Of a DNA stretch of 64,000 nucleotides, positions 1 to 64,000 are shown piece after piece (positions within the stretch are counted from its first letter, which is position 1; each line of letters starts with the position of its first letter). The stretch lies in the NCBI GenBank assembly GCA_003212695.1, contig QCPC01000006.1, forward strand, positions 1 through 64,000, given 5' to 3'. The notes under the pieces are model-generated. The model made no database searches. It saw only the letters and a program-made list of their open reading frames with translations, and had not been told where the DNA came from. The position numbers and the translations under genes are program-made. Source of the stretch: Prochlorococcus sp. AG-436-C13 (lineage in GTDB: Bacteria; Cyanobacteriota; Cyanobacteriia; PCC-6307; Cyanobiaceae).

Positions 1-867
1 GATAGACGAATTGAGCTTGATCTTCCTGATAAAAATGGAAGATTCAAGATTCTATCCTTGCATGCTCTTTCTAAGCCTCTTGAAAATGATGTTGACCTAA
101 ATCATTTAGCCACAAAAACTCAAGGTTTTTCTGGCGCAGAGTTATCTAATTTACTAAATGAGGCAGCAATACTTACTGCAAGGCAAAACAGGACGAAGGT
201 TGGTACAAAACAGTTAGAACAAGCTTTAGATAGAAAATTACTAGGTCTTTCATACAGGTATCCATCATCTATTAAGTCACAGAAAATAATTGCTTACAAC
301 GAGATAGGGACAGCTATGCTTTCATACCTAATACCTTGCTCAGATAATTTTAATAAAATCTCCCTTTTTAGGAATTATAACTCTTTATCTAGGTCTACTT
401 TATTAGTTCCACCCGAAGAATTTGTTGATTTCGGTTTTGCTACAAAGAAATATCTAATGTCTAGATTAATATTATCTATGGGAGCAAGAGCTACAGAGGA
501 ATTGGTTTTTGGACGCTCAGAAATTACACAGTTATCAGCAAATTATTTAACACAAGCAACTTCTATAGCAAAAGAAATGATTGTTAAATATGGCTTTTCT
601 AAACTGAGCTTTAACTTTGATCAGAATAATAATAATAATAACAAACTCTTGTCATCACATTTGCTTAGAATAAAACCCTCCAATGCCAATATTACATATA
701 AAGCAATAGATAAAGAAGTATCTACTCTTTTATTTAAAGCACTAACAATAGCTAAAAATGAATTACGCCCTCACTTACATCTAATCGACAAAATAACTGA
801 TATATTATTAGAAGATGAAGTAATATCAGCCAATCGCTTTAAGAAATTAGTTAAAGGTACAATTTAA
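1..867 (+). CDS. FtsH-family AAA protein, C-terminal part, metalloprotease-dead
   Basis: The gene enters from the left edge and is open from base 1, so the 5' end lies outside the window. The visible part is the end of the AAA module, the alpha-helical lid (GFSGAEL) and the M41 peptidase domain of FtsH, a membrane-anchored hexameric protease. The zinc-binding HEXGH motif reads N-E-I-G-T (codons at 298-312). The later aspartate of the usual SNDL segment reads N-Y-L (Tyr codon at 544-546). All three zinc ligands are therefore replaced while the surrounding fold is recognisable and the frame is intact. I infer a proteolytically inactive FtsH, possibly a regulatory or chaperone-like hexamer subunit. 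An asparagine run near 609-642 is a low-complexity insert. Family call is firm; the role is inferred. Confidence 0.88.
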   Translation, partial: DRRIELDLPDKNGRFKILSLHALSKPLENDVDLNHLATKTQGFSGAELSNLLNEAAILTARQNRTKVGTKQLEQALDRKLLGLSYRYPSSIKSQKIIAYNEIGTAMLSYLIPCSDNFNKISLFRNYNSLSRSTLLVPPEEFVDFGFATKKYLMSRLILSMGARATEELVFGRSEITQLSANYLTQATSIAKEMIVKYGFSKLSFNFDQNNNNNNKLLSSHLLRIKPSNANITYKAIDKEVSTLLFKALTIAKNELRPHLHLIDKITDILLEDEVISANRFKKLVKGTI

Positions 868-875
868 ATTGTGAA

Positions 876-1694
876 ATGAAGCTTGTTCTTGACAATATTC
901 TAAAAACCAAACTTGATTTTTACAGCATAGTTTTTAAGTGTTTATTTGTTATATTTTTATACCAATTAGGCTACTTATTAAATAAGTTAAACTTAAATTC
1001 CCAGTTAGGTATTATCATTTACAAAAATTATAAGTTATATTTTATTTTAGGTTGTATATCTTCATCTGTAATATTGCTGACAGTTGTTAGGTCTTGGTTC
1101 GAAAGATGGACAGTTATTAGTAGAAATAACATTAATTATATCAATTATGAGTTGAAAATCTTAGGCAGTAGAAAATATACTTTCCTACTTATTTCTGTAA
1201 TCATAGTATTGTTTTTAAGTATTAATCTACTCCTAGTATTTAGCAAGATTATTTACCTTGGTATAGGATCTATAAACGGACCATATGTTAACAACCTGAT
1301 CACCACATATAAAGTATTTTGTTCTCATTCAATAATCCCTTTTATATCTTTAATTGTATTCCTAATTGTATCCAAATCGTCTTTATATTTATTCTATATC
1401 AATACGATAATATTTCTCCCTTTAATTAGCTTTAGTTTAATTGAGATAGATAGTATTTATTCTCTTGCTGAAACATTAGGTTATTTATCAGTTGCAGATA
1501 TATACAATATAATTTATACGAACTATATAATAACAACTTTTCTTTGTGCATTGTTAAATTACTTGATATCAGAAAATAGATTTAGCGATGTAAATTGCTC
1601 TATGCCTAATATAAACCAACTTTTTCATCTATTTTCCCTTATCTATATTTTTGCTAGTTATCTTCTATTTATAAAAGCTTTTTCTTTTCAGTAA
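876..1694 (+). CDS. Unknown multi-pass membrane protein
   Basis: A 272-residue very hydrophobic protein that I do not recognise. Apparent membrane segments lie near residues 18-38, 52-70, 100-128, 150-185, 210-230 and 248-268, with few charged residues between them. It starts 8 bases after the stop of the protease-dead FtsH gene on the same strand, so the two are probably co-transcribed and the products may work together in the membrane; that is inference from position only. It ends 15 bases before the convergent peroxiredoxin gene. Composition matches its neighbours, with no sign of recent transfer. Confidence 0.7.
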   Translation: MKLVLDNILKTKLDFYSIVFKCLFVIFLYQLGYLLNKLNLNSQLGIIIYKNYKLYFILGCISSSVILLTVVRSWFERWTVISRNNINYINYELKILGSRKYTFLLISVIIVLFLSINLLLVFSKIIYLGIGSINGPYVNNLITTYKVFCSHSIIPFISLIVFLIVSKSSLYLFYINTIIFLPLISFSLIEIDSIYSLAETLGYLSVADIYNIIYTNYIITTFLCALLNYLISENRFSDVNCSMPNINQLFHLFSLIYIFASYLLFIKAFSFQ

Positions 1695-63481: not shown

Positions 63482-64000
63482 ATGAATCAAAGATTTAAAT
63501 CACTTGCAATGTGGATAATTCCTCTCGTTATCTTGCTGCTTGTTACTTGGCAAATAGTCACAAGTGGAAATTCAGGATCCATCCAACAAACAAATAATTC
63601 TTCTGCTGTTACTAGGAACGCGGCTGTATCAAGAATGAGTTATGGAAGATTTATAGACTATATAGACTCTGGCAGAGTTACTTCTGTAGACATATTCGAT
63701 GGAGGAAGAAATGCTGTTGTTGAAGCAGTAGAACCAGATTTAGATAATAGAGTTCAAAGAATAAGAGTTGATCTTCCAGGACTTACACCCGAACTTATAG
63801 AAAGACTAAAAAAAGAAGGTATTAGTTTTGATATTCACCAACCCAAAACTGCTCCTGCTGGAGCTGGATTTTTAGGCAGCTTAATCTTCCCAGCATTCTT
63901 AATATTGGGCCTTGTATTACTAGCCAGAAGGTCAAACTCTATGCCAGGAGGACCAGGACAAGCAATGCAATTTGGAAAAACAAAAGCAAGATTTGCAATG
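63482..64000 (+). CDS. ftsH: FtsH metalloprotease, N-terminal part (runs off window)
   Basis: The gene starts with ATG at 63482 and is open to the right edge, giving 173 residues. An N-terminal membrane helix (about residues 7-23), the thylakoid/periplasmic FtsH extracytoplasmic domain (MSYGRFIDYIDSGRVTSVDI and ERLKKEGISFDIHQP) and a second helix (LGSLIFPAFLILGLVLLARR) are followed by the FGKTKARFAM segment that precedes the AAA module. The ATPase and protease domains lie beyond the window. It probably has its own promoter in the 116-base gap after the MacB-type gene. Confidence 0.93.
   Translation, partial: MNQRFKSLAMWIIPLVILLLVTWQIVTSGNSGSIQQTNNSSAVTRNAAVSRMSYGRFIDYIDSGRVTSVDIFDGGRNAVVEAVEPDLDNRVQRIRVDLPGLTPELIERLKKEGISFDIHQPKTAPAGAGFLGSLIFPAFLILGLVLLARRSNSMPGGPGQAMQFGKTKARFAM

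Follow-up and report, generated by a model that had tools for sequence, protein, structure and literature searches.

In core Prochlorococcus, the ATP-dependent membrane protease FtsH4 has lost the zinc-binding site of its protease domain, and we are confident that the gene is nevertheless conserved and selected and not a pseudogene. Prochlorococcus is the most abundant photosynthetic bacterium in the ocean, and FtsH4 is one of its four FtsH membrane proteases. Most known cases of fixed pseudoprotease FtsH come from plastids, and what they do there is under debate; the bacterium studied here is free-living, and its zinc-dead FtsH very probably arose in one step. We lean towards the view that FtsH4 mainly acts as a protease-dead, ATPase-competent type-B subunit in a heterohexamer with FtsH3.

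The window analyzed here is a stretch of 64,000 nucleotides (positions 1 to 64,000 of contig QCPC01000006.1) from Prochlorococcus sp. AG-436-C13, and its relevant features are listed in Table 1. The gene fragment starts at base 1 of the contig (G000:C6 in our numbering), and the missing half is hence attributable to the assembly edge. What is present is an uninterrupted frame up to its stop, covering the end of the AAA+ domain, the AAA lid and the M41 domain, with Pfam matches to AAA_lid_3 (E 4e-13) and Peptidase_M41 (102 bits, E 4.6e-29; cut-off 29.9). For comparison, the genome's two other M41 genes, in which HEXGH and Asp are intact, score 253 and 236 bits. The open frame, the recognizable fold and the altered zinc site had all been read from the letters in the original prediction, and all are borne out: the former HEXGH codons are aac-gag-ata-ggg-aca, and the codon of the distal Asp is tat. 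Replacement of all three zinc ligands, with the catalytic Glu kept, is practically certain, and the protein lacks the HEXGH and distal Asp that mark an active M41 zinc metalloprotease. A structural model of the degenerate domain (mean pLDDT 76) superimposes on 2di4_B with Z 20 and an rmsd of 1.9 Å over 165 residues, and the FtsH protease fold is predicted to be kept. The model also matches FtsHi motor subunits (8xks_B, Z 20.8), while ordinary FtsH scores higher.

Table 1. Features of the window that bear on FtsH4 (positions in nucleotides).
Feature	Position	Strand
3′ part of Prochlorococcus ftsH4 (probably type B, FtsH1/Slr1390-type), 288 codons and stop, cut by the contig edge	1..867	+
AAA+ lid domain (PF17862), residues 30-73	88..219	+
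Peptidase_M41 (PF01434), degenerate, residues 92-283, fold predicted to be kept	274..849	+
Former HEXGH zinc motif, now N-E-I-G-T	298..312	+
Third zinc ligand, formerly Asp, now Tyr	544..546	+
ORF with a very probable UPF0182 (PF03699) N-terminal membrane stub, 272 aa, polytopic, co-directional	876..1694	+
Context: start of an intact FtsH2-type (type B) paralogue, HEIGH and Asp, continuing past the window	63482..64000	+

Most of the missing 5′ half was recovered at the edge of another contig (G000:C28:2-691, minus strand) by searching the same genome with the N-terminal half of the protein from the sister genome G010, to which it is 67% identical. This part encodes one TM helix with no hydrophobic segment before it and an intact Walker A motif, and upstream of it lie a small membrane gene and a HAD gene, as in relatives. 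The gap between the two parts corresponds to about 66 residues, and Walker B and the second region of homology (SRH) of the window copy fall into it. The ATPase motifs, which the original prediction had proposed to check, are therefore intact in this copy as far as Walker A is concerned, with its own Walker B and SRH unassembled; in every full-length zinc-dead orthologue Walker A, Walker B and SRH are all present, adjoining the membrane anchor. The most diverged copy (G016) has the variant Walker A GSPGTGKT. According to hydropathy, core Prochlorococcus FtsH4 has a single hydrophobic helix and not the classical two N-terminal TM helices. Most Cyanobiaceae FtsH4 (for example L155, L153, L144 and L272) likewise have one TM helix left: the first one, or signal-like segment, of the corresponding FtsH in other cyanobacteria is missing, a loss that came before that of the zinc site.

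Within the genus, the FtsH4 gene is found in 11 of 14 genomes, and ten relatives there are 43-61% identical to the window protein, as compared with 31-36% for other FtsH paralogues (full matches). In the family-wide survey we obtained 123 distinct orthologous M41 domains, 86 of them with HEXGH and Asp and 37 zinc-dead. Zinc-intact FtsH4 occurs in Synechococcus, Cyanobium, Vulcanococcus, MIT9313 and several small early-branching genomes. The zinc-dead form occurs in core Prochlorococcus, including MED4 and genomes that we take to be the MIT9301, NATL2A, MIT9211 and SS120 strains. Among the 37 zinc-dead domains the first His is kept in 7, the Glu in 26 and the Asp in 23; the second His is the sole ligand absent from all of them, and was hence probably the first to go. 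Its place is taken by Arg (19), Lys (16), Thr (1, the window) or Ile (1, the sister G010), which suggests that a basic residue may stand in for the charge of the metal. The most diverged FtsH4 (L182 / L254, G016:C1:288016-288633) has the zinc motif RNASK and a 265 aa UPF0182 stub beside it. A true loss of FtsH4 from some near-complete genomes was also considered. In the genomes checked, the neighbouring HAD gene is missing as well or a contig edge cuts the locus, so that these absences look like assembly gaps. A few other incomplete genomes of the family gave no FtsH4 match.

We built a tree of 69 FtsH proteins, in which all zinc-dead sequences group together as a single clade inside the zinc-intact FtsH4 (SH-aLRT 94); with the partial window sequence and the longest branch removed the value is 97, and parsimony requires one change. 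We regard a single origin of the zinc-site loss, in the ancestor of core Prochlorococcus, as very probable. All FtsH4 sequences group with a fourth FtsH clade, found in other cyanobacteria, and the FtsH2 clade is their sister (99). Within each of four further cyanobacterial genomes, the highest identity between FtsH proteins (62-66%) is that of FtsH2 to the member of the fourth clade, by a narrow margin in two cases. FtsH1 and FtsH2 are described as the most similar pair, both of type B (PMC9020784). P. marinus FtsH4 has been equated with Slr1390, i.e. FtsH1 (PMC6300248, PMC11262661), an equivalence that its authors call 'less obvious' (PMC6300248). Our tree holds no named Synechocystis sequence, and the equivalence accordingly rests on the published trees together with the sister-clade placement. 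Judged from sequence, Prochlorococcus FtsH4 is probably a type-B subunit orthologous to FtsH1/Slr1390. It resembles Slr1390 in its position beside the FtsH2 clade, its AAA+ and M41 domains and its single copy per genome, and in MIT9313 and Synechococcus the orthologue has its zinc site; in contrast to Slr1390, the core Prochlorococcus protein lacks the zinc ligands and the N-terminal hydrophobic segment and evolves fast.

All 16 published ftsH qPCR primers (PMC6300248) match the MED4 (G126) and MIT9313 (G061) genomes exactly, and the FtsH4 primer pairs match the gene discussed here in both. A mislabelling of FtsH isoforms in Bonisteel et al. can be ruled out, since the 16 primers map consistently, and the published labels stand. 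Table 1 of PMC11262661 assigns P. marinus FtsH4 a role in cell viability by homology with Slr1390, and is silent on FtsH4 being protease-dead in MED4, SS120 and NATL2A-type strains. Mishra et al. 2019 (PMC6460958) state in a single sentence, repeated in PMC8197885, that SS120 has one FtsHi. We find one zinc-dead FtsH, with the motif NEAGK, in G001, the genome taken as SS120, and the FtsHi of SS120 is almost certainly the FtsH4 gene described here; that report does not go into its orthology, distribution, origin, partner gene or selection. Our literature search returned nothing on the distribution, origin or selection of zinc-dead FtsH4.

The locus has a conserved order, recJ - HAD - DUF565-like small membrane gene - ftsH4 - X - 2-Cys peroxiredoxin, in which recJ, HAD and DUF565 were read from sequence. 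In zinc-intact genomes X is a UPF0182 (PF03699) protein of about 920-955 aa, a member of an uncharacterized family. In zinc-dead genomes X is an ORF of 249-277 aa, to which the ORF downstream of ftsH4 in the window belongs. In zinc-intact as well as zinc-dead lineages, ftsH4 and X are co-directional and closely spaced, with a gap of -3 to 69 bp. The Cyanobium-type genome G099 has ftsH4 and UPF0182 about 3 kb apart. The seven LL1 loci lack X and keep zinc-dead FtsH4 without the stub. In whole-genome searches, full UPF0182 was present in 15 of 15 zinc-intact and in 0 of 22 zinc-dead genomes tested, and the window genome has no PF03699 match.

A Pfam scan of the stub alone gave no match either, and the link to UPF0182 is visible by profile comparison only. 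With hhalign, a profile of 17 short X proteins aligns to the UPF0182 N-terminus with E 1e-10 and probability 97 (controls: 0.12 for the reversed profile, 8e-4 for the best of 50 block-shuffled ones). With hmmsearch, a profile of the UPF0182 N-terminus ranks 17 of 21 stubs above the first unrelated ORF (0.14), and X of G016 and of the genomes taken as SS120 and MIT9211 reaches 2e-10 to 4e-10; the other four X proteins score below the best unrelated ORF, and their assignment rests on the X profile and on position. We consider it highly likely that the ORF in the window is an N-terminal UPF0182 stub, homologous to the membrane region of the family. It lacks the large C-terminal region (the Pfam model has 770 positions), with about 650 C-terminal residues missing in zinc-dead genomes. 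Its model has a mean pLDDT of 82; Foldseek gave nothing below E 1, the best Z in a fold search (7.2) was not informative, and the PDB holds no sequence relative of UPF0182. In HL strains X has a dN/dS of about 0.38, i.e. it evolves fast with some constraint. UPF0182 was truncated on the very branch on which the zinc site was lost, and the link to UPF0182 is new here. In G063 a C-terminal UPF0182 fragment with one TAA inside lies at a contig edge (G063:C4:7-564), while other sampled members of that genus have the full gene.

FtsH4 has thus lost its zinc site and retains one TM helix, the motifs of the AAA+ motor and an M41 scaffold whose fold is predicted to be kept. Based on these data, we propose that it would still assemble with the intact type-A FtsH3 into an FtsH1/3-type heterohexamer, a complex that is essential in Synechocystis. 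FtsH4 would supply ATP-driven unfolding, translocation and ring structure, and substrates would be cut by the FtsH3 subunits alone. Cyanobacterial FtsH1/3 and FtsH2/3 are heterocomplexes of a type-A and a type-B subunit, and FtsH1/3 is essential (PMC11287208). According to PMC9020784, which cites Zhang 2010 and Yu 2013, type-B subunits tolerate inactivation of the protease and do not tolerate inactivation of the ATPase. Given such pairing and such tolerance, a zinc-dead FtsH4 can still serve in a heterohexamer in which FtsH3 does the cutting. The engineered protease-dead type-B proteins resemble FtsH4 in keeping the ATPase with a dead protease, and differ in that the state of FtsH4 is natural and fixed. 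The original prediction had suggested mixed hexamers with the FtsH that begins near the end of the window. This FtsH is intact; however, it is itself of type B, and with the published pairing of type A with type B (PMC9020784) the expected partner is instead the FtsH3-type protein (HEAGH), which is intact on contig G000:C14 of the same genome. Loss of full UPF0182 may have removed any need for proteolysis by FtsH4 itself. Zinc-intact sister lineages are alive, and MIT9313 versus MED4 thus offers a natural test of whether a type-B FtsH needs its own protease.

Subunits of essential complexes do not usually evolve as fast as FtsH4 does, which counts against the FtsH3 heterohexamer, and since UPF0182 was truncated on the branch of the zinc-site loss, the functional unit could be FtsH4-UPF0182 rather than FtsH4-FtsH3. 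As the main rival reading, FtsH4 may form a hexamer of its own and act, in LL1 by itself and elsewhere in concert with the UPF0182 stub, as a non-proteolytic AAA+ machine such as a membrane segregase, chaperone or translocation motor, for which the Ycf2-FtsHi import motor of plastids would be a parallel in principle. The tight co-directional pair kept in both kinds of lineage is consistent with such a machine, as are the shared branch of the two losses, the stub that is open, confidently modelled and somewhat constrained, and the structural matches to FtsHi motor subunits, even though these lie below ordinary FtsH. Against it, LL1 strains have zinc-dead FtsH4 without the stub. The core Prochlorococcus lineage is moreover known for genome reduction, and the co-truncation, being one event on one branch of such a lineage, is a lead and not proof, and may be coincidence. 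A still bolder and rather doubtful version holds that FtsH4 and UPF0182 were one picocyanobacterial membrane machine that lost its two output domains, the zinc protease of FtsH and the large region of UPF0182, in the core Prochlorococcus ancestor, and is now a pure ATP-driven motor, an independent bacterial counterpart of the plastid FtsHi motor. In the literature searched there was nothing linking FtsH and UPF0182 and no lead on a UPF0182 partner; the linked truncation provides a lead on a possible working partner for this family.

That FtsH4 is a pseudogene in slow decay, open by chance, is improbable. It does evolve several times faster than the other FtsH, further ligands have eroded after the second His, LL1 has lost the neighbouring stub and the G016 copy is very diverged. 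However, the gene is open and free of internal stops in every genome with an assembled locus, the ATPase motifs are kept, and a basic residue, Arg or Lys, stands in the place of the second His in 35 of 37 cases. Pairwise Nei-Gojobori dN/dS (medians over pairs with dS <1.5) of zinc-dead FtsH4 is 0.049 in HL, 0.050 in LL1 and 0.095 in the window genus for the AAA domain, and 0.135, 0.119 and 0.216, respectively, for M41, i.e. never near 1; active FtsH paralogues have 0.02-0.055 in the same domains, and type-A FtsH3 about 0.02. Purifying selection hence acts on both domains, more strongly on the ATPase than on M41. For the window copy compared with its sister G010, dN is 0.276 and dS 1.409, the latter near saturation, and differences at the three codon positions number 84/52/139 over 285 codons. 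Columns invariant in active FtsH are retained at 0.89 in the AAA/N part (148 columns) and at 0.70 in M41 (65 columns). The earlier suggestion of a selected, protease-dead FtsH instead of random decay thus holds up, on the grounds of orthology and synteny across core Prochlorococcus, kept ATPase motifs and a dN/dS far below 1.

A metalloprotease with an alternative set of ligands is very improbable: the catalytic Glu and the Asp persist in 26 and 23 of the 37 zinc-dead proteins, but the second His is never His, the Arg or Lys that usually replaces it would repel a cation from the pocket, the window protein has lost three of three ligands, and the clade shares no other conspicuously conserved metal-binding residue. 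An error of sequencing or assembly can be dismissed as the source of the altered zinc motif despite the fragmented, 79% complete assembly of the window genome, since the sister G010 and 35 further distinct orthologues, finished genomes included, also lack the motif.

With its zinc ligands lost and its ATPase kept under selection, FtsH4 is, judged from sequence, an FtsHi-like pseudoprotease. It shares with plant and green-algal FtsHi1, 2, 4 and 5 of the Ycf2-FtsHi-FtsH12 motor the loss of HEXXH and of the third ligand, a complete AAA+ domain and the kept M41 fold; FtsHi1 reads TEVGV...Y and FtsHi2 NEAAM...T at these sites (PMC11266112). Unlike these proteins, FtsH4 is bacterial and of independent origin inside Cyanobiaceae, is the single zinc-dead paralogue of its genome and has no known Ycf2 beside it. 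The parallel to plastid FtsHi drawn in the original prediction is therefore valid as an analogy and not as membership in the same subfamily: in our tree, which holds no plant sequences, the zinc-dead clade is nested in zinc-intact Cyanobiaceae FtsH4, which argues against common descent. Two very long-branched FtsH-like proteins of about 800 aa with intact HEAGH (L236 and L237, in G183 and G165) belong to another cyanobacterial family and fall outside the four known clades.
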